Source: Sphingorhabdus sp. YGSMI21
GTDB taxonomy: Bacteria; Pseudomonadota; Alphaproteobacteria; Sphingomonadales; Sphingomonadaceae
Assembly (NCBI RefSeq): GCF_002776575.1
Contig: NZ_CP022548.1
Location: 1,317,001 to 1,381,000, forward strand
Direction of reading: 5' to 3'
Length of the DNA stretch: 64,000 bases
The translations under genes and the position numbers were made by a program. The notes under the pieces are model-generated. The model made no database searches, had not been told where the DNA came from, and saw only the letters and a list, made by a program, of their open reading frames with translations. Each line of letters begins with the position of its first letter. Positions within the stretch are counted from its first letter, which is position 1. Positions 22,705 through 33,127 of the stretch are shown here, one piece after another.

Positions 22705-23697
22705 TCAGAGTCCTTCGAGGAACGCGAGGAGGCCATCATCGGGCCGGTATCGGCCTGTCGGCACCTGCGGAGCAGCGACCCGAGCGAGTGCCTTTTCCTT
22801 CATTCGCATATCGGCGTGGATGTATATCTGGGTGGTTGCGACCGACTCATGTCCGAGCCAGAGAGCGATCACCGCTTGATCGACGCCATGATGCAGGAGG
22901 TCCATCGCGGTGCTGTGGCGCAGCGTATGCGGTGTGACACGCTTGGTCCCGATGCTCGGGCACGCGCGCGATGCCGTGAGGCAGTGCTTGCGGACCAGAT
23001 GTTCAAGTGCATCACGGCTCAGCCGCTCACCCCGGATCGACGGGAACAGCGGGCTGTTATCGTCACAGCGCTCGCTCATCCATGCCGCCAGCAGCTTGGC
23101 GGTGTCGCGGCGCAGCGGTGTGCATCGCTCCTTCCGGCCCTTGCCCATGCAACGGATATACGCGCCCGTACCAAGCGTCAGATCGCCGCACTTGAGGTTC
23201 ACCAGCTCGGACGCCCTGAGACCCGTCTGAACCGCGAGCAGGAGCAGCGCATGATCACGCCGTCCGGCCCACGTCGCACGATCAGGAGCCGCCAGCAATG
23301 CCGCGATCTCCGGTGTATCGAGGAACGTCACCGTGCGTTTCACATAGCGTTTGCTGGGCATCGCCAGCACGCGCTGACAGTGGAGCAGCCAGGTCGGATC
23401 GGTCATCGCGACATAGCGGAAGAACGAGCGGATCGCGGCAAGCCGGATGTTGCGGCTGCGGGCGCTGTTGCCGCGCACGGTCTCGCAATGAACGAGGAAG
23501 TCGGCAACCAGATCGGCGTCGATATCCTCGACCGCGAGCTTGACCGGCGGCTTACCGCAGCGCGCACCCGCGAACCGCAACAGCAGGCGGAACGTGTCGC
23601 GATAGCTTGCAACCGTATGAGGGCTGGCTTCCATCTGGGTGCACAGCCGGTCAGTGAAGAAGCGCTGGATCAGCGCAGGCAAGGTTGCAGCGCTCAT
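22705..23697 (-). CDS. RIT tyrosine recombinase C (third gene)
   Basis: The protein of about 330 residues has an N-terminal SAM-like core-binding domain (TLPALIQRFFTDRLCTQMEASPHTVASYRDTFRLLLRFA). Its catalytic domain shows QTGLRASELVNLKCGD (arginine), KRVTPHTLRHSTAMDLL (H-x-L-R-H) and WLGHESVATTQIYIHAD (histidine and tyrosine nucleophile). The start at 23697 overlaps the stop of the middle recombinase as ATGA; six upstream codons are ignored. All catalytic residues look present. Confidence 0.9.
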   Translation of the reverse strand: MSAATLPALIQRFFTDRLCTQMEASPHTVASYRDTFRLLLRFAGARCGKPPVKLAVEDIDADLVADFLVHCETVRGNSARSRNIRLAAIRSFFRYVAMTDPTWLLHCQRVLAMPSKRYVKRTVTFLDTPEIAALLAAPDRATWAGRRDHALLLLAVQTGLRASELVNLKCGDLTLGTGAYIRCMGKGRKERCTPLRRDTAKLLAAWMSERCDDNSPLFPSIRGERLSRDALEHLVRKHCLTASRACPSIGTKRVTPHTLRHSTAMDLLHHGVDQAVIALWLGHESVATTQIYIHADMRMKEKALARVAAPQVPTGRYRPDDGLLAFLEGL

Positions 23698-24626
23698 TGG
23701 TCCGTCTCCCCGCAAGAGGTTGCCCGCGCCATCGCCAGATCGAGCAGTTCGGGCACCGCTTCGAGATACCAGAACGTGTTGTCGGGGTCGGTATGGCCCA
23801 GATAAGTGGTCAGCCGGATCATCTCGCGGGCCGGATCCTTGCCGGTACGGTACCAGTTTATCATTGTGCGCACCGCAAAGCTGTGGCGCAGATCATGGAT
23901 ACGCGGTCCCCGGCCATGCCGACCATATCGCTGATGCGCTCGCAAGCCGATATGCTGGCATACCTGCGCAAAGTTGTAGCGCGTGCCGCAATCGGTCGGC
24001 CTTGCTCCCTTGCAGTTAACGAAGAAGGATGTCGGGACACTTCCCAGCAACCGGTCGCGCTCGGCAGCATAGGCGACGAGCCTTGTCACCACCGTGGGAT
24101 CAAGGGGAAGCAGCCGCTCCTTACCGAGTTTTCCGCGCCGAACGCGCAGCACACCGTTCGCAAGATCATCATGGTCGAGCGCAAGCGCTTCGCTGATCCT
24201 GAGACCCGTCACCGCAATAAGCCCGAACAGGGTCGAGAAGGTCAGTCCGCGCATACCGTAGATCGAGGGCAGCGCCCCCGCAGCCGCGATGATCGATGTG
24301 ATCTCGGCCTCGCTGTATATATACGGGCGCGAGCGCCCGGTATGGCCCGGCAGCAGCCCACGCGGCGGGACTTCATGGGCGGGATCAATGTTGCTCAGCC
24401 ACTGCGCGAACAGCCGCACCTTGCCAAGCCGGGCCGAACGTGTCGATGTGCTGACGTCAGGCAGGCTTGCATCCCAGCGCAGGAACAGCGCCGTATCAAT
24501 GCGCGCAGCGCCTTCCTGATCGGTAAACCGGGCGAACCGGCGCAGTACCCGTTCATCGGTGCGAAGGTCATAACCGAGGCTGCGCCTAACGCCAAGATAG
24601 CGGTCCAGTTGGGATGTGACATTCAT
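23694..24626 (-). CDS. RIT tyrosine recombinase B (middle gene)
   Basis: The protein of 310 residues starts MNVTSQLDRYLGVRRSLGYDLRTDERVLRRFARF, a typical middle-gene N-terminus in RIT elements. The catalytic residues are in VTGLRISEALALDHDD, RIHDLRHSFAVRTM and YLGHTDPDNTFWYLEAVPELL. It overlaps both neighbours by ATGA, so the trio is one transcriptional and translational unit. Confidence 0.9.
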   Translation of the reverse strand: MNVTSQLDRYLGVRRSLGYDLRTDERVLRRFARFTDQEGAARIDTALFLRWDASLPDVSTSTRSARLGKVRLFAQWLSNIDPAHEVPPRGLLPGHTGRSRPYIYSEAEITSIIAAAGALPSIYGMRGLTFSTLFGLIAVTGLRISEALALDHDDLANGVLRVRRGKLGKERLLPLDPTVVTRLVAYAAERDRLLGSVPTSFFVNCKGARPTDCGTRYNFAQVCQHIGLRAHQRYGRHGRGPRIHDLRHSFAVRTMINWYRTGKDPAREMIRLTTYLGHTDPDNTFWYLEAVPELLDLAMARATSCGETDQ

Positions 24627-25561
24627 TGTCCGCCTCCTGCAACCGGCCATGGCTGCGCGATGGACCTGAGGCCCTCAATATCAAGCCGAGCATATATCAT
24701 GGTCGATGATCGCGAGCGGTGTCGCAGCATATCGCCCACCTCGTCGAGCGATGCACCAGCATTGATGAGCCGGGTCGCAAGGCTATGACGCAGGAGGTGC
24801 GATCCCACATAAGGTGTGACCGGCTTCTGCCCCGTGGCCGCCAGTGCATCCTTGAGGATAGCGTTGGCGATCTGGCCGTCCTTGAACCCGCGATGCGGCG
24901 CACGGTGCGTGACGAACATCGTTCGGCAGGTCGTCGGCCCACGCTCCTCACGAAGATACCGGCTCAACGCTTCGCCAACCTCGGCTGTTATTGGCAGCCT
25001 GTCATGCAGCCCGCCCTTGCCGCGCACGAGCAGTTCGCCCGCTCGCCAGTCTATATCATCAAGCTGGACCTTGATAATCTCGGAAGCGCGCAGCCCCAAC
25101 CGCGCCATGAGCAGCAACATTGCATAATCGCGTGCGCCATGACGGGGATTGCTGTGCACCGAAGCGAGAATGGCCTCGACTGCACCGGGCGACAGGTGCC
25201 GGGGCAGCCGCGCATTCCAGCGCTGGGCCGTCTTTGGTATACTCAAGGCCAGATTTGCCGAGGTCGCCCCGCACGCGAACAGATATTGGAAGAAGGTCCG
25301 CAAATGGGTCGTCACTGTCTTGTCGCGATATGGCGTCCTGCGCGCCAATATGTGCTGCACAAAGTTGGTAGTGTCGGCGGCGCGAAGGCGCGTCAGGTCG
25401 ATCATTCGGCTCCCGAAGCGGTGATCGAGGAACCGGTTGGCGAAGCGAAGCGTGTGGTAGATGGTGCGCGGACTGAGGCCTCGCTGCCTTACAAGATAGT
25501 CCTCAAAGTCCATCAGCAACGCTGCTCGTGTGCGCTGTATCTCGTTAATAGATTCAGTCAT
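24623..25561 (-). CDS. RIT tyrosine recombinase A (first gene)
   Basis: This first gene of the trio encodes 312 residues from MTESINEIQRTRAALLMDFEDYLVRQRGLSPRTI. The catalytic motifs are ARLGLRASEIIKVQLDD, VGSHLLRHSLATRLI and MLRHRSRSSTMIYARLD. The frame extends 21 codons further upstream into the element's end, but the chosen start fits family N-termini. The promoter must lie in the last 120 bases of the element, between the start and the right repeat. Confidence 0.9.
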   Translation of the reverse strand: MTESINEIQRTRAALLMDFEDYLVRQRGLSPRTIYHTLRFANRFLDHRFGSRMIDLTRLRAADTTNFVQHILARRTPYRDKTVTTHLRTFFQYLFACGATSANLALSIPKTAQRWNARLPRHLSPGAVEAILASVHSNPRHGARDYAMLLLMARLGLRASEIIKVQLDDIDWRAGELLVRGKGGLHDRLPITAEVGEALSRYLREERGPTTCRTMFVTHRAPHRGFKDGQIANAILKDALAATGQKPVTPYVGSHLLRHSLATRLINAGASLDEVGDMLRHRSRSSTMIYARLDIEGLRSIAQPWPVAGGGQ

Positions 25562-25650
25562 AATCATCATACTCCATATTGTTGGAGCAGCAAAGATAAT
25601 GCCGAACGCCCTTGGCGGTATCATACTGAAAGCCGCCTTTCTTCGATGCG

Positions 25651-26451: not shown

Positions 26452-26768
26452 TACGATGCATTCCTTAAATGCTCGCTACCGGTTCGTCTTGGCATGAACT
26501 TGTTATTGCCCTTCGATCGTTGCGCGCTGGCTGCATTGCTGTACGCCTCTTGCCTCCTTTCAGGACAGGCCCTTGGACCGGTCGGCAGCCAGCCGCAACC
26601 TCAAAGGACTGCGGCCCGTGTGGCCCGCGCCAGCCTTGCCTTTGAGGTTTCCCGCCGTTGGCGGTGCGGCATGTCTGCCTATTCCCGGTCCGATGCGGGC
26701 ACTGCCGGAGGCAACAGCGCGTCGCAATCCCGCTGACCGCTTTGCTTCCAATATCAGGAGGCAAAACC
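26452..26768. promoter_or_regulatory. Long GC-rich leader before the DUF2493 gene
   Basis: This stretch of 317 bases has no convincing gene. An 11-base perfect inverted repeat, AACCTCAAAGG at 26597-26607 and CCTTTGAGGTT at 26639-26649, encloses a GC-rich loop. Similar long leaders with inverted repeats precede ssb. They could act as single-strand promoters or regulatory leaders in the leading region; this is an inference. Confidence 0.4.
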
Positions 26769-27710
26769 ATGTATGACAATTTTACCCGGTCGCTGTCAGG
26801 ACTTGATCTTTCAGGCTTGTCGATCACCACGCCGCCATTTGGCCCCACAGATTTTCCATGTGAAAACGCGATCCAGCAGACGCTTGCCGGCGTCTGGTCT
26901 GATCTCTTTGCGCTCTTCAGCGATACCGCTCTGGAAGCTGATGGCGAAGACATCGCGTGGGGCTTCGTCAATCTCTTCCACCGGGCCGCTTCGCGCAAAT
27001 CCTCGGCTGTTGACCGCGCAACCGACGAAATCCGGGCGTTTCTTGCAAGCGCCGATGGATCAGAGATCCACAGTTCCAATCTCGAAGAGCAGATCGAGTG
27101 CGCACAGGCTGCTGAAGCAAGCATGATTGCCTTTGAAGCCATGCGCGAAACAGCGGCATCTCTCTATATCCACGAAACCGGCTCGTCCTGGAAGCCGATG
27201 ACCGGTTCCCGGCCAAATCATGCCAACGGCATCACATCAGCGGTGATCAATGGCCGTGATTTTCTCCGCGCTCGCGCGCAAAGCCGCCAGAAAGCCTATA
27301 TTCCCGAAGGTACGCCAGTAATCTTCGCTGGCGGCCGAACAAAACAAAACAGCACTGACGATGCGAAGCGATTTGCCGAAAACATATGGGAAACACTCGA
27401 CAAGGTATCGAACTGTGTTCCCGATATGGTTCTTGTCCATGGCGGTGACACCAAGGGTGCAGATCGCTTAGCCGCATCCTGGGCGGAACGTCGCGGCATT
27501 CAGCAGCTAGTCTTCTCGCTCGACCGTCGCCTCGGAGCCCGGGCAGGATTTAAGCGCAACGAGCAGATGCTCTCCCTCAATCCGCGATATTTGATTGCCT
27601 TTCCTGGTACAGGTGTTCTGGAACGACTTGTGATCGAGGCCAAGACGCGCCGTGTAACGGTTGTTGATCGCCGCGGCCTGTTTGGGACTTCTCCAAAATC
27701 GCCTGGGTGA
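26769..27710 (+). CDS. DUF2493 (SLOG-like) protein
   Basis: The last 130 residues of 313 form a DUF2493 domain: VIFAGGRTKQNSTDDAKRF, then MVLVHGGDTKGADRLAASWAERRGI and GFKRNEQMLSLNPRYLIAFPGTG. This Rossmann-like fold (YspA, SLOG superfamily) is predicted to bind nucleotides or related ligands. The first 180 residues are helical and specific to plasmid and ICE versions. ATG at 26769 follows CAGGAGG. Family members with this long N-terminus are frequent beside ArdC and ParB in sphingomonad plasmids; the role is unknown. Confidence 0.85.
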   Translation: MYDNFTRSLSGLDLSGLSITTPPFGPTDFPCENAIQQTLAGVWSDLFALFSDTALEADGEDIAWGFVNLFHRAASRKSSAVDRATDEIRAFLASADGSEIHSSNLEEQIECAQAAEASMIAFEAMRETAASLYIHETGSSWKPMTGSRPNHANGITSAVINGRDFLRARAQSRQKAYIPEGTPVIFAGGRTKQNSTDDAKRFAENIWETLDKVSNCVPDMVLVHGGDTKGADRLAASWAERRGIQQLVFSLDRRLGARAGFKRNEQMLSLNPRYLIAFPGTGVLERLVIEAKTRRVTVVDRRGLFGTSPKSPG

Positions 27711-28100: not shown

Positions 28101-29222
28101 TCAACCAGCGAGAATCTCGCTTTCGAGCATGAAGCTCGCGCGTCGCCGGTCCTCGTCCGAGATCACATATTGCGCGAAGGCGGGACACACGTCGGTCGAG
28201 CGGTCGAGCAAGCGTGCGAGCAATGCCAGGCTGGAACGCTGTCGATCGCCCATACGGGCGAGGTCGTCCGCAATCTCATCCGCCGTCGTCTGATTGAGAT
28301 AGGTGAAGAGTTTGCCGAGTAGACCGGCAATTGGGTCCGAAAGCTGGATTCCCTGCTCAGATTTGGAATCGGCGAAACGGAAATGCTCCAGCGCCGCGCC
28401 GTCATCGGTCAATTCGATGGATCGGAGATAGGTCTCGATCTGCTGCTCATCGTCGAGGATGTGGCTAGCGTTTTTGAAGAGGCACAGTCGGTTCAGGAAG
28501 AAGGTGCCGAAACCATCGATTAGGATGTTGGGGGATTCATCCTCAAGATAGGGCAGCGACGGAAGGCCGCGAGCGATCTGTAGCAGGCCCTTGAGCATAT
28601 AGAATTGAAAGTGCGGCAGCATGTTCTCGCGATAGTCGAGGAGATCAAGCAGCTCGGCGACAAAGGCGCCGCGCCGTTCATGTCCCACGTCGGGATAGCT
28701 GTAGCGCCCCAACAACTCGGCCGTTCCGTCAACGTCGTCGCGCAGCAAGGTGTACAGGCTGTCTTTGAGCATCATGTGTACGGCGACCAATTGGGGAGCG
28801 TCAGCTTCGCTTAGGATCGCATCGACGATATCGACGATCGACCAGTAGAGCAGGTCCGTGACCTGATAGTGGACGAGAAAACCTTCATCCGAGAGCCATC
28901 GCAGGAAGCACTCGACCTTTGCCGAATCGAGAAGTTCAAGAAGGTCGCCGTTGCCAAGGAGCCTGAGCTTTATTTCTTTGACGTTCGGCTGAAAGCGCAG
29001 CGCAGCGCGCAACGAACCTAGGTTGATCGCCCGCGGCGCGCCGGCGTGCACGATGCCGCCGAGGACGAAGCAATCTGGACGACGAATGTTCATTCCGCCG
29101 GCGGTAAGGTGCAGCTTTCTGACGTTGTTGGTCTCGTCATAGTAGAAGGTGAAGACCTCATCGATCCCGGGCAAGCGGTACATCGCAATGATGGGATCAC
29201 GCAGTTCGTTGACGTCGATCAT
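28101..29222 (-). CDS. DUF3800-like RNase H-fold protein
   Basis: The N-terminal motif VFTFYYDETNNVRKLHL and the C-terminal FADSKSEQGIQLSDPIAGLLGKLF are the two anchors of DUF3800-type proteins, which are thought to be RNase H-like nucleases. D and E of YDETN and the aspartates of ADS and LSD are the probable metal ligands. The protein has 373 residues from MIDVNEL. An upstream ATG at 29282 gives 20 extra charged residues and has no ribosome-binding site, while AGGGG precedes 29222. It faces the QueC-like operon across 168 bases, so it may belong to the same system. Such proteins recur in phage-defence islands. Confidence 0.72.
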   Translation of the reverse strand: MIDVNELRDPIIAMYRLPGIDEVFTFYYDETNNVRKLHLTAGGMNIRRPDCFVLGGIVHAGAPRAINLGSLRAALRFQPNVKEIKLRLLGNGDLLELLDSAKVECFLRWLSDEGFLVHYQVTDLLYWSIVDIVDAILSEADAPQLVAVHMMLKDSLYTLLRDDVDGTAELLGRYSYPDVGHERRGAFVAELLDLLDYRENMLPHFQFYMLKGLLQIARGLPSLPYLEDESPNILIDGFGTFFLNRLCLFKNASHILDDEQQIETYLRSIELTDDGAALEHFRFADSKSEQGIQLSDPIAGLLGKLFTYLNQTTADEIADDLARMGDRQRSSLALLARLLDRSTDVCPAFAQYVISDEDRRRASFMLESEILAG

Positions 29223-29390
29223 AAATTCTTTGCCCCTACGTTCCTTCTCCCGCTCGTCGCGCCGGAGAGGGATAATCATCATGTCTTTTTCGATGTGGCA
29301 GGTCCACCGTTTAAGAGAAATGTCAGGTTTGATAAATTAGTAGGTTGACAATGTCAGAGTGAAGGCGCAGATAGAATGCGGGAGTTCCGC

Positions 29391-29960
29391 ATGAGTGATG
29401 GTCCATATAAATCGCTGCCGATGAAACCGCGTTGGCGGCGAGCCGCTAAGTGCGCCTACAAGGAGGCCTATTCGCCGGAGGAGGTCGTGGAGAGCGTCAC
29501 TCGGGCATCGCATGCCGACTGGCGCAGCGAAGTGCGGCAGACATTCGTTAGCAGCGTGGCCGCAATCGTTAATTCCATCGGCCAGCAATCCTTATTCGCC
29601 GATCAGATTCTGAGCGATCTTGGCAGCCTTCAGAGGATATGTGCCTCCCCGATGGAATCGACTTTCGTTCTTACCACGATGGAAGCCGTTCGGTCGGGGC
29701 AGTCCGGGGCAGCTGCCGTTCAGCGGGCTGCCGAGGATGCGCTCTCCGACCGCCTGCTCAGCAATTATCGCCAAGTGGAAGAGCATGTCCGCCGCGATGA
29801 CGGATTGCAGAATGCGCGTTTCGTCCGGAGTAGGTTTGATGCCGCCCATCAGCAGGTCGATTTCCAAGGTCTTGCCCGCGCACTTTTGAGGACCGGCGAT
29901 CCTTTGCCGCGACGAACCCGCGCTTCAAATACCGATCTTGATGCTGGAGTACCGCTATGA
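29391..29960 (+). CDS. Unknown protein, first gene of the QueC-like operon
   Basis: The 189-residue protein begins MSDGPYKSLPMKPRWRRAAKCAYKEAYSPEEVVESV and is mostly helical, with a basic C-terminus. I know no function for it, but the MSDGPxxSLPM start has the look of a conserved family. Its stop overlaps the QueC-like start as ATGA. In QatABCD and type IV CBASS the QueC-like enzyme acts on the N-terminus of a partner protein. By analogy this protein could be the substrate of its neighbour; that is speculation from position only. Confidence 0.65.
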   Translation: MSDGPYKSLPMKPRWRRAAKCAYKEAYSPEEVVESVTRASHADWRSEVRQTFVSSVAAIVNSIGQQSLFADQILSDLGSLQRICASPMESTFVLTTMEAVRSGQSGAAAVQRAAEDALSDRLLSNYRQVEEHVRRDDGLQNARFVRSRFDAAHQQVDFQGLARALLRTGDPLPRRTRASNTDLDAGVPL

Positions 29961-31348
29961 CCGCCAGAACCTATCACGCAAGTCGCGAAGACGCGGTCTT
30001 GATAGACGCCGTCGAGGCTGGCTCCCGTCTGCGCGACGGTGCTGCCGGTGCCCTTCTGGACTCTGCGATCAGCCTGTCGACCGCGGGCTTGGAGAGCTAT
30101 TTCTACACAGGCTGGCGACCTGAATTGGTCGACCTGATGGTGATCGCCGGAGCCGCAGAATTTTGCGATCTCAGCGTTCGGCGTCCGCGATGGGGCTGGG
30201 CACGGTCGTTCGATCTGCGTGTCGCCGTCCATGACCTTGCGCGATGGGAAGACAGAGCCGTCGGCTTAGCGCTGGAAGATGCGCTGACATTTTTGACTGG
30301 CGATCAGTGGGCGATCTCGTTCGTCGAACGCGAGCACGACATCGCGCGTGTCGGCCAAGGGACACTGGGCTTCGACGTCCGCGATCGCATTATCATGCCC
30401 TACAGCGACGGCATCGATTCACGGGCCGTCTCGGCCCTTGTTGAAGCGGAAGAAGGGGGCGGGCTCGTGCGGGTGCGCCTCGGGACCAAGGGCGCTGATA
30501 CTCGTTCGCGCGATCCGAGGGAGCGCCGGTTCATGTCGGTTCCCTATCAGGTCCGGCTTGACGGGCGACAGCGGGTCGAATCCACCGCACGATCGCGCGG
30601 TTTCAAATTTGCGGTGATCACCGGAATCGCCGGAGTTCTAGCGGATGTCGAGCGCATTGTGGTGACCGAGAGCGGCCAAGGTGCGCTTGGTCCGATCCTC
30701 GCCAGCTTGGGGCAAGCCTATGCAGATTATCGGGTGCATCCAGCTTTCACCCGCCGGATCGAAGCGTTATTCGCGGTGCTCACCGGCAAACGAATCCGGT
30801 ACGAATATCCGCGGATCTGGTCGACTAAGGGAGAAACCGTAATAGCGGCCAATGCGCTGGCATCTGCTCCCGGCTGGTCGAGCACCCGCTCCTGCTGGCA
30901 GAATTCACGGCAAGTCAGTTTCGCGCAGCAGCGGCGCCAGTGTGGTATTTGCGCGGCCTGTATGCTTCGCCGGCTTAGCATGCACGCGGCAGAGGTAGAC
31001 GAACCTGCATCCAATTATATCTGGGAGAATCTTTCTGCTCCCGACATCGCATCGGGTGCCGTACCGGGCTTCACCCTTATGACCAAAGCTCTTCGCGAAC
31101 ATGCTATCGCCGGCGTGCTGCATCTCGACCATCTTTCCGCACTGGCCGGATCGCCCATCCATCGTCGGACCATTGATCGTGTTGCACGCGAGACCGCCAA
31201 CGCCCTCTCAATTGATCCCGTCGAAGGGGAACGAAGGGTTCATGACCTCTTGTCGCGTCATCGCGACGAATGGCTTGCCTTCCAGTCCAGCTTGGGGCCG
31301 AACTCGTTTGTTTCCCAGCTTGCCCAGGTGTCCCCATGGCCGCGGTGA
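29957..31348 (+). CDS. Divergent QueC-like ATPase (defence-type, QatC/Cap9-like)
   Basis: QueC makes the nitrile of preQ0; divergent relatives QatC and Cap9 serve phage defence. Here the PP-loop motif is PYSDGIDSRA (S150-S155), where SDGIDS replaces the usual SGGxDS. The zinc site of QueC is intact: C313, then C329-x2-C332-x2-C335 within QCGICAACMLRR. About 140 N-terminal and 120 C-terminal residues are additional to QueC. No queD, queE or queF gene was recognised nearby, which argues against a plain queuosine role. It is locked between an unknown protein and an XRE-ImmA gene by short overlaps. The class is well supported; its reaction is not known. Confidence 0.82.
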   Translation: MTARTYHASREDAVLIDAVEAGSRLRDGAAGALLDSAISLSTAGLESYFYTGWRPELVDLMVIAGAAEFCDLSVRRPRWGWARSFDLRVAVHDLARWEDRAVGLALEDALTFLTGDQWAISFVEREHDIARVGQGTLGFDVRDRIIMPYSDGIDSRAVSALVEAEEGGGLVRVRLGTKGADTRSRDPRERRFMSVPYQVRLDGRQRVESTARSRGFKFAVITGIAGVLADVERIVVTESGQGALGPILASLGQAYADYRVHPAFTRRIEALFAVLTGKRIRYEYPRIWSTKGETVIAANALASAPGWSSTRSCWQNSRQVSFAQQRRQCGICAACMLRRLSMHAAEVDEPASNYIWENLSAPDIASGAVPGFTLMTKALREHAIAGVLHLDHLSALAGSPIHRRTIDRVARETANALSIDPVEGERRVHDLLSRHRDEWLAFQSSLGPNSFVSQLAQVSPWPR

Positions 31349-32517
31349 CCGGCAGCCTTACGCCCGAAGCGCTTGGAGAACTTCTGCGAGAAGCTCGAGA
31401 GAATGCGAAGCTGACCCAGGCGGCGGCGGCGCAGGCGCTCAATGTGGCACGCACTACGCTGGTTGCCATCGAACAGGGGCAACGCCGTGCTCGCATCGAG
31501 GAGCTTCAAAAGCTTGCCGCGCTGTATCGCGTCTCACTCAATGTCTTATTACGACAGGATGGTGTGAGGGTCGATCTGCGTCCGAGATTCCGGAAGGCTG
31601 GCGAAGACGATCAGGAGGTGGAAAGCGCGGTTGCCCTTCTCAACAGTCTGGTCCAAGCTGAGCTGGAGCTTGAAAATCTGCTCGGCATTAAGCGTGCTCG
31701 CAACGACCCACCGGAGCGGCCGCTGTTGCCCGGGAACGTAATTTTGCAAGCTGAACAGGATGCTGCGGAACTGAGACAATGGCTCGGACTTGGCATGGCG
31801 CCAATTCACGACATGCTCAGCCTATTGGAGGTGCAACTCGGTGCGCGCGTATTCGTTCGACAGCTACCGGCGAGAGTGTCCGGTCTCTACGCATTCGACG
31901 AGGAAGCGGGTGCGTGCATCCTTCTCAACGCGGCGCATCCCCGGGATCGCCGGACGCAAACCGGCGCCCATGAGACCGGGCATTTCATTTCGACACGCCG
32001 GGCGCCCGACGCGCTCTATAGTGACTCGCCGGAAGCAACACGTGAGGAGCGCTATGCGAACGCTTTTGCGCGATGCTTACTGACCCCTGCAAGGGCAGTA
32101 GCTGCCCGGTTCCAGGATGTCACCGCCGGGGCGGCACGATTGACCCGCCGCCACATTATTATCCTCGCGCACGCCTTTGGCGTGTCGCGCGAGGCCATGG
32201 TGCGCCGTCTCGAAGAACTCGGCCTCACCAAATCCGGAACTTGGGACTGGTTCGCGGACCATGGTGGGATCACTGACGAACAGGCTCGTGAGGTATTGGG
32301 GGACGCTATCGCGTCGGATCCCGCAAAGGGGGATGCGACTCGGCCGGTCTCGATGCGATTGAGCTTGCTGGCCAGCGAAGCGTGGCGACGGGGTCTGTTG
32401 AGCGAGGGACAGCTGGCGCGGCTGCTGCACATCGACCGGGTCGAGGCTCGCGAGATGATCGACGAATTTGAAGAGGAAGGAGCGGTCGACGATGAGTCAC
32501 CCTGGCTCCTGGCTTGA
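31336..32517 (+). CDS. XRE / ImmA-IrrE-type regulator-protease
   Basis: Residues 10-75 form a helix-turn-helix (LGELLREARENAKLTQAAAAQALNVARTTLVAIEQGQR). Residues 160-260 are a zinc peptidase of the ImmA/IrrE family with H212-E213-x2-H216 in GAHETGHFIS and a further ligand in REERYANAFA (about E238). The C-terminal 120 residues are helical. ImmA/IrrE enzymes cut repressors after a stress signal; fused to XRE they often act as antitoxins. Its start lies inside the end of the QueC-like gene (13-base overlap) and its end overlaps the PIN gene by 26 bases, so antitoxin for the PIN protein is a good guess. Confidence 0.88.
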   Translation: MAAVTGSLTPEALGELLREARENAKLTQAAAAQALNVARTTLVAIEQGQRRARIEELQKLAALYRVSLNVLLRQDGVRVDLRPRFRKAGEDDQEVESAVALLNSLVQAELELENLLGIKRARNDPPERPLLPGNVILQAEQDAAELRQWLGLGMAPIHDMLSLLEVQLGARVFVRQLPARVSGLYAFDEEAGACILLNAAHPRDRRTQTGAHETGHFISTRRAPDALYSDSPEATREERYANAFARCLLTPARAVAARFQDVTAGAARLTRRHIIILAHAFGVSREAMVRRLEELGLTKSGTWDWFADHGGITDEQAREVLGDAIASDPAKGDATRPVSMRLSLLASEAWRRGLLSEGQLARLLHIDRVEAREMIDEFEEEGAVDDESPWLLA

Positions 32518-33127
32518 CGATGCCGGATCGCTGGTAAGCGATGCCAGCGTCTGGATCAATCTCGTCGCAACCGAACGCGCGGATGTCGTCCTTCGAGCGT
32601 CGTCGGTGCGTCACCTCATCACATCGACGGCGCTCGGCGAGCTTGAGGCCGGCCGCGCGAAGGGGCGGCGGACTGCAATTGTGATTGCGGAGCTGATCGA
32701 GATCGGACTGATCAGCGAGGTAGCGCTCAGGCCCGCGGAAGAGGAAACCTTTCTTGGACTGGTTGCCGGCCCTATCAGTAAAACTCTCGACGATGGCGAG
32801 GCCGCGACAATCGCATACGCCCTTGGATCGGGATCGGTCGCGCTGATCGACGAACGTAAAGCGACGGCTCTCTGCGGGAATCAATTCCCGTCGGTCAAAG
32901 TGATGAGCACTACGGATCTGTTGCTTTCCCAGGCTGTGCAAAGCGCGATGACCGCCGATGATCTCGCGGACAGCCTGTTTCGGGCCTTATTGGTTGCGAG
33001 AATGCGGGTGCCCGAACACCATCTGCCTGAAGTGTGCAGGTTGCTCGGCCCGGAACGTCAGCAGCAATGCCGCAGTTTGCCGGCTACCTGGAGGAGGCCG
33101 CCCGATGCACGATTGGCAGTAAACTGA
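32492..33127 (+). CDS. PIN-like nuclease (DUF3368 type)
   Basis: The acidic PIN residues are visible: D17 in VSDASVWIN, E50 in LGELEAG, D101 with GEAATIAYA, and D120 in LIDERKA. The motif string DDGEAATIAYA followed by LIDERKA is characteristic of DUF3368 PIN proteins, predicted RNases and often toxins. The 211-residue length is longer than usual, because a helical tail of about 60 residues follows. It ends the four-gene operon. The start at 32492 is the one inside the XRE-ImmA gene. Confidence 0.82.
   Translation: MSHPGSWLDDAGSLVSDASVWINLVATERADVVLRASSVRHLITSTALGELEAGRAKGRRTAIVIAELIEIGLISEVALRPAEEETFLGLVAGPISKTLDDGEAATIAYALGSGSVALIDERKATALCGNQFPSVKVMSTTDLLLSQAVQSAMTADDLADSLFRALLVARMRVPEHHLPEVCRLLGPERQQQCRSLPATWRRPPDARLAVN

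Follow-up and report, generated by a model that had tools for sequence, protein, structure and literature searches.

What does a bacterium gain from an operon in which a QueC-family enzyme is followed by a protease-like regulator and a PIN-type nuclease? We addressed this question for four consecutive genes (genes 1 to 4) of Sphingorhabdus sp. YGSMI21, which lie within a stretch of 64,000 nucleotides analysed here and referred to as the window (contig NZ_CP022548.1, positions 1,317,001 to 1,381,000, forward strand). Gene 1 encodes a small partner protein, gene 2 a QatC-like member of the QueC family, gene 3 a fusion of an XRE helix-turn-helix (HTH) domain with an ImmA-type metallopeptidase (XRE-ImmA), and gene 4 the PIN-type protein. 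The four genes form a real, conserved system. On balance we read it as a mobile operon for immunity or abortive infection composed of two joined modules, one for protein tagging, most likely with 7-carboxy-7-deazaguanine (CDG), and one for a PIN toxin under protease control. It would belong to the immune systems in which QueC-family enzymes modify proteins, as a variant coupled to a toxin-antitoxin pair of the protease type, and its most likely role would be stopping viruses.

Loci were searched with gene 2 alone, and the presence of the other three genes is therefore independent evidence. A pattern scan of an 84,980-species collection with the gene 2 alignment gave 253 stretches and 228 relatives, and the best 80 were kept (L028-L107); these include near-copies and same-genome pairs (L028, L037) and are not 80 independent events. 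We tallied the four genes by profile searches of all open reading frames (ORFs) of at least 60 amino acids in 107 loci. Gene 1 was observed in all 80 of the loci chosen by gene 2, XRE-ImmA in 79 and PIN in 77. An earlier note on this DNA, made from the sequence alone, had named the lack of a conserved gene order in other genomes as a reason to abandon its reading; we found the order conserved, with the operon complete in 77 of the 80 loci and the other three (L043, L067, L077) cut by contig ends, beyond which their four absent genes fall. The overlaps of 4, 13 and 26 bases between successive ORFs were as that note gave them, and the start sites of the operon genes were consistent with those of the homologues. 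All four genes were also observed in each of the 16 plasmid loci fetched. Relatives of gene 2 with at least 37% identity over most of the length occurred in 25 of 72,556 plasmid records (92 had any match), and a comparison of the two lists showed that XRE-ImmA relatives at E<=1e-30 occurred in the same 25 records. Seven loci outside the gene 2 family (L004-L008, L026, L027) contained no relative of gene 1 or PIN and no XRE-ImmA, save an unrelated HTH protein in the qatABCD locus L026; with flanks that do not exceed about 1.5 kb in five of them, they form a weak control.

Record titles of the loci spanned alpha-, beta- and gammaproteobacteria, Acidobacteria and Candidatus Entotheonella, and some loci were located on chromosome-sized contigs (e.g. 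L036, L086). Among 199 genomes of the host family, members with at least 40% identity were observed in the window genome and two more (G105, G009). Searches of viral contigs and phage records gave no match, and carriage of the operon by phages or viruses was dropped from consideration. In a few loci one gene was split over two frames with the other genes present as whole ORFs: gene 2 in L021 (4486-5872), and gene 1 in L019 (3886-4462) and L080 (3846-4477).

The most striking feature of gene 1 is its N-terminus. A total of 98 of 100 homologues begin with M-[S/T]-D-G-P (Ser in 89, Thr in 9), followed by His in 57, Tyr in 33 and Phe in 8; the two exceptions are L023, which begins MRDGI, and the split gene of L080. 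Starts were chosen by the x-D-G following the start codon, which was ATG in 97 of the 98, and the annotated start was the same codon in 10 of 12 annotated plasmid loci (L022 was one codon off, and L023 is the exception above). Relatives are otherwise diverse, with 25-44% identity to the window protein apart from two at 72-75%. The mean majority-residue fraction was 0.77 for residues 1-15 vs 0.45 for residues 16-189, and the other invariant positions were A39, E131, H132 and G186. Such conservation, found mainly at the N-terminus, would fit a protein that is modified there, and we regard gene 1 as the putative modified substrate. Ser or Thr in position 2 permits removal of the initiator Met. 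Residue 15 is aromatic (Trp in 85 and Tyr in 9 of 98), which recalls the conserved Pro16/Trp18 in the tail of QatB; in the portion of the published work cited here, deletion of these together with residues 16-22 abolishes defence (PMC13279940). The same source describes a conserved N-terminus in both QatB (MGTS) and the CD-NTase of the type IV cyclic oligonucleotide-based antiphage signalling system (CBASS; MGGS), modified in CBASS and essential in qatABCD, with a QueC-family enzyme in each case.

Gene 2 belongs to the QueC family with its closest kinship to QatC. Pfam PF06508 matched with E 4.8e-6 over residues 262-341 only, while the PADLOC QatC model matched with E 5.9e-27 and the NCBIfam QatC model gave 99.9 bits, below its cut-off of 280. 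A profile of gene 2 matched the QatC structures 9VLK (2.4e-29) and 9ZEE (4.3e-27) vs 0.0021 for QueC 2PG3. In a tree of 53 rows, a branch (82/95) separated 46 family members from the rest, another (99/99) set off six QatC sequences, and the remaining row was QueC; this places the family as a probable sister of QatC, with support that is only modest because of long branches. The earlier note had pointed to four zinc cysteines, an SDGIDS loop in place of SGGxDS and long extensions, and each of these was confirmed. None of the 92 family rows lacked the cysteines C313/C329/C332/C335, and S150, G152, D154 and S155 were kept in 91. The second loop position was Asp in 55 rows, Glu in 23, Asn in 11, and Lys, Gly or a gap in one each, so the loop is a family-wide S-[D/E/N]-GxDS trait. 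The extensions appeared QatC-like by length and by the secondary structure of an AlphaFold model (mean pLDDT 86.2, pTM 0.88), which predicts an N-terminal alpha/beta extension (strands and helices 14-124) and C-terminal helices at 377-456.

The motifs of gene 2 combine features of QatC and QueC. The QatC set D(x)4R, RxRxxxF, ExG, HP and P(x)4TK, as given in the cited portion of a survey of the family (PMC13329287), was also observed in gene 2. The stretch Y255-A-D257-Y-R259 (Y255 kept in 88, D257 in 92 and R259 in 92 of the 92 rows) was aligned by profile, as a sequence alignment only, to YPDCR of QueC 2PG3, the Tyr and Asp of which have been linked to deazaguanine recognition (PMC13279940). 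Most family rows read Y-x-D-Y-R-x-H-P in this region vs S-T-R-T-x-H-P in the six QatC rows. We also observed, in the outside locus L007 (G056), a QatC-like domain within a longer open frame of about 600 amino acids.

Genes 3 and 4 resemble a toxin-antitoxin pair. Each of 22 aligned XRE-ImmA proteins matched both HTH_3 and Peptidase_M78, and H212, E213 and H216 were invariant among them; HExxH was present in 98 of 99 complete gene 3 ORFs, the 99th being the unrelated HTH protein of L026. A UPF0175 match at E<=0.05 was observed in 15 of the 22 (best 1.5e-5; window protein 0.018, residues 344-373), and PADLOC models matched gene 3 as RmrA (E 3.2e-23), capP (E 1.8e-14) and capH (E 4.6e-7). The window PIN protein had no Pfam match at E<=1 and a weak PADLOC match to PDC-S70 (1.1e-5), and the gene 4 profile matched none of the PDB chains at E<=0.1. 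The PIN assignment comes from the relatives, of which 6 of 42 aligned members matched PF01850, and the acidic residues D17/E50/D101/D120 were kept in 93/92/93/90 of 93. A fused XRE-HExxH protein lies beside a PIN nuclease with its catalytic acids, an arrangement shared with COG2856-Xre/PIN toxin-antitoxin systems. A 2009 listing of toxin-antitoxin associations includes both Xre-COG2856 fusions and UPF0175 as neighbours of PIN genes (PMC2701414, in the portion cited), and ImmA antitoxins with PIN-like partners were described in 2023 (PMC10440598, likewise). We consider XRE-ImmA and the PIN nuclease likely to be the output arm of the operon.

The region upstream of gene 1 contains a conserved palindrome. 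TTGACA was observed in 94 of 98 upstream regions of 90 bases each, and the inverted repeat TGACA-N0-3-TGTCA in 77 of the 98. TTGACA alone is an ordinary -35 consensus; the palindrome is more telling. Copies of TGACA were concentrated at two places: 90 had their start between -52 and -46, and 64 had theirs between -21 and -16. In the window, TTGACAATGTCAG was present as an exact copy, with 0.13 copies expected when one mismatch is allowed, and TTGACAWTGTCAG was a single copy in the 4,060,755-base genome, in which the palindrome TTGACAwTGTCAG is unique. The simplest reading is that the palindrome is a predicted XRE operator covering the -35 element. In many loci the second TGACA half-site (-21 to -16) lies beside the ribosome-binding site. 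This is replaced in the window and the relatives nearest to it by an upstream ATGTCAG half-site (29320-29326 in the window), and there are apparently two operator layouts upstream of gene 1.

Taken together, these features suggest how the operon may work. Module 1 (genes 1 and 2) would act in the manner of QatB-QatC and of Cap9 and its CD-NTase: gene 2 would bind ATP and activate a purine-like base at its carboxylate. The base would most likely be CDG, given that the Y-x-D recognition pair is kept, and once Met had been removed gene 2 would join it to the N-terminal amine of gene 1, with Ser/Thr-Asp-Gly-Pro in place of Gly. Module 2 (genes 3 and 4) would be a protease-type toxin-antitoxin pair in which XRE-ImmA represses the operon at the palindrome and, by way of its UPF0175-like tail, keeps hold of the PIN RNase. 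Upon infection, the amount or tagging of gene 1 would change and so switch the ImmA protease; upon loss of the repressor and antitoxin, the PIN nuclease would cut RNA and the cell or phage would be stopped. The earlier note had proposed gene 1 as the substrate or partner of the QueC-like enzyme and XRE-ImmA with PIN as a sensor-toxin arm; this fits the qatBC-like order, the conserved N-terminus, the QatC kinship, the intact protease and nuclease residues, the UPF0175-like tail and the operator-like palindrome. A bolder form of this account, which we put forward only tentatively, is a distinct immune class in which a QueC-family ligase puts a nucleobase on a dedicated sensor, at its N-terminal Ser/Thr, and the metalloprotease-antitoxin holding the PIN RNase is under the direct control of whether the sensor is tagged. 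A nucleobase-tagged protein would then be the switch of a protease-controlled toxin.

Several observations weigh against this CDG-tagging account. The acceptor residue of gene 1 would be Ser/Thr, vs the Gly that is essential in QatB and CBASS, and the acidic or Asn residue in the loop of gene 2 could alter or abolish the ATP chemistry. The one line of evidence that couples modules 1 and 2 is the operon structure. Gene 1 had no solid match in Pfam, PDB or QatB, and its profile was not significant against six QatB sequences (hhalign probability 1%), leaving gene 1 unsupported as a QatB homologue by sequence; we make no claim from the likeness of QatB GGPxxxTPLxPxW to gene 1 DGPxxSLPMxxxW, as the P-to-W spacing varies among the six QatB sequences and PxW occurs in 27 of 98 gene 1 sequences. 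The supply of the base also raised doubt. We examined queuosine genes in 46 carrier genomes, covering 46 of the 80 loci, and the QueE model TIGR04508 matched 38 of these at E<=0.001 (24 above its cut-off). The eight misses were followed up together with two matched genomes for TIGR03365 and TIGR00364, and with one for TIGR04322 and PF01242. TIGR03365 matched 6 of the 10 (four weakly, at 20-24 bits), the QueC model TIGR00364 matched 9 of the 10 at E<=0.001 (5 over cut-off), TIGR04322 matched 1 of the 9 and the QueD model PF01242 4 of the 9. In four carriers, the isolate G214 and the metagenome-assembled genomes G225, G237 and G241, matches to QueC, QueD and QueE were either absent or of 20-30 bits and not convincing; in G218 QueD was present with QueC and QueE not convincing. 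G223 had QueC with no match to QueD or QueE, and these models may therefore miss genes. Because of the results for G214, G225, G237, G241 and G218, CDG cannot be assumed as the base; carriers without convincing Que genes weaken it as a universal substrate, and an obligatory link to host CDG supply was not upheld.

The same four carriers, together with the S-[D/E/N]-GxDS loop, would be accommodated if the defence system were unchanged but what gene 2 attached to the gene 1 N-terminus were a different carboxylated metabolite or just AMP; the reaction of QatC itself is left open in the cited portion of PMC13279940. We find this rather doubtful, as the Y-x-D pair, which reads deazaguanine in QueC and Cap9, is kept and QueE is matched in most carriers. 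The plasmid records and the conjugation genes beside the operon, along with the published listing of XRE-ImmA/PIN pairs as toxin-antitoxin modules, would also suit a system that maintains a plasmid or conjugative element, with genes 1 and 2 only tuning XRE-ImmA/PIN and the benefit being stability of the element rather than phage defence. Yet some loci are on chromosome-sized contigs, defence genes are often neighbours, and the two QueC-family immune branches described in the cited portions of PMC13279940 and PMC13329287, QatC and Cap9, are both antiphage and protein-modifying, which makes element maintenance unlikely in our view. Very improbable, and already disfavoured, is a metabolic or DNA/RNA base-modification enzyme by chance beside a toxin-antitoxin pair. 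Many plasmid records do annotate gene 2 as 7-cyano-7-deazaguanine synthase, but it gave only 19.4 bits with the QueC model TIGR00364, far under the cut-off of 150.3, the host carries its own canonical QueC side by side with QueE outside the operon, and the four genes are tightly linked. Gene 2 as a housekeeping queuosine gene was rejected on the same score and the same host QueC.

Compared with known systems, the operon resembles qatABCD in its first two genes: a partner gene with a conserved N-terminus lies immediately upstream of the gene for a QueC-family enzyme and overlaps it. The enzyme is extended at both termini and has QatC-type motifs and a four-cysteine zinc site. Unlike qatABCD, it had no match to the QatA KAP ATPase or the QatD TatD nuclease (Pfam, PADLOC), with XRE-ImmA and PIN in their place; gene 1 does not begin MGTS, and gene 2 has the altered loop and YxDYR where QatC has STRT, so that the invariant Thr278/Thr280 are absent. 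With Cap9 of type IV CBASS (N-terminal deazaguanylation of the CD-NTase), gene 2 shares membership of the QueC family and a presumed action on the N-terminus of a protein, and by sequence alignment the Y-x-D nucleobase-recognition motif is kept in gene 2; however, gene 2 is much larger, the acceptor would differ, and no CD-NTase or Cap10 match was found among the operon proteins (Pfam, PADLOC, NCBIfam). The HExxH XRE-ImmA overlapping a PIN-type gene, with its RmrA match and UPF0175-like tail, is shared with COG2856-Xre/PIN and RosmerTA, whereas here the pair is linked to two QatBC-like genes in the same 25 plasmid records. An XRE repressor with an ImmA-type protease also recalls CapH/CapP, which we take to be a switch of CBASS, except that here HTH and protease are fused in one chain and the controlled genes are not CBASS.

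The earlier note knew the four-gene set under no name, and we likewise found none in the open literature among the matches listed. The cited portion of the QueC family survey covers QatC, Cap9 and other clusters with no mention of the set; it places qatA beside 34.3% of the QatC cluster (PMC13329287), and systems like the present one may be part of the remainder without qatA. If our account is true, the operon would be a third QueC-family immune branch, in which the enzyme pairs a body like that of QatC with a substrate motif like that of QueC and Cap9, and with an output resembling an ordinary PIN nuclease behind a metalloprotease. What QatC attaches, and why, would become a directly testable question, as gene 1 is small and its N-terminus nearly invariant.

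Table 1. Features of the operon and its upstream region in the window (aa, amino acids).
Feature	Position	Strand	Description
Gene 1	29391..29960	+	189 aa; QatB-like partner and putative N-terminally modified substrate; starts M-S-D-G-P
Gene 2	29957..31348	+	463 aa; QatC-like QueC-family protein with N- and C-terminal extensions
Gene 3	31336..32517	+	393 aa; XRE HTH - ImmA/IrrE (M78) metallopeptidase with UPF0175-like C-terminus; putative repressor, protease and antitoxin
Gene 4	32492..33127	+	211 aa; PIN-type nuclease, putative RNase toxin
DUF3800 protein gene	28101..29282	-	Neighbour outside the system; PADLOC defence candidate PDC-S51
Operator-like/-35 element TTGACAATGTCAG	29345..29357	+	Palindrome TGACA-A-TGTCA overlapping a TTGACA hexamer

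Several neighbouring genes were also observed in the window. The DUF3800 gene (Pfam E 1.8e-7; PADLOC PDC-S51 E 2.1e-102) is divergent from the operon, as the earlier note had described; with flanks of about 1.5-4.5 kb considered, relatives were present in 6 of 107 loci, the window counted among them, and we rejected it as a fifth member and regard it as an occasional neighbour. Conjugation genes were observed at 34487-61767 (SSB, TrwB/TraD-type coupling protein, TrwC relaxase, TraG, TraC, TrbI), and because the window contains these together with tyrosine recombinases, an integrated conjugative element probably carries the operon as cargo. Eight of the 12 annotated plasmid loci had a defence- or toxin-antitoxin-named gene within 4.5 kb, a generous name-based count that has no background count beside it; the names included AbiE/AbiJ, RelE/ParE with an Eco57I-type methylase, AbiEii, Lit, reverse transcriptase, Fic, VapC and Shedu. 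The recombinases are three tandem genes at 22708-25624 on the minus strand, which we take to resemble the trio of recombinase-in-trio elements, and a YspA/cpYpsA-related SLOG-domain protein (26658-27710, plus strand) sits between them and the operon.

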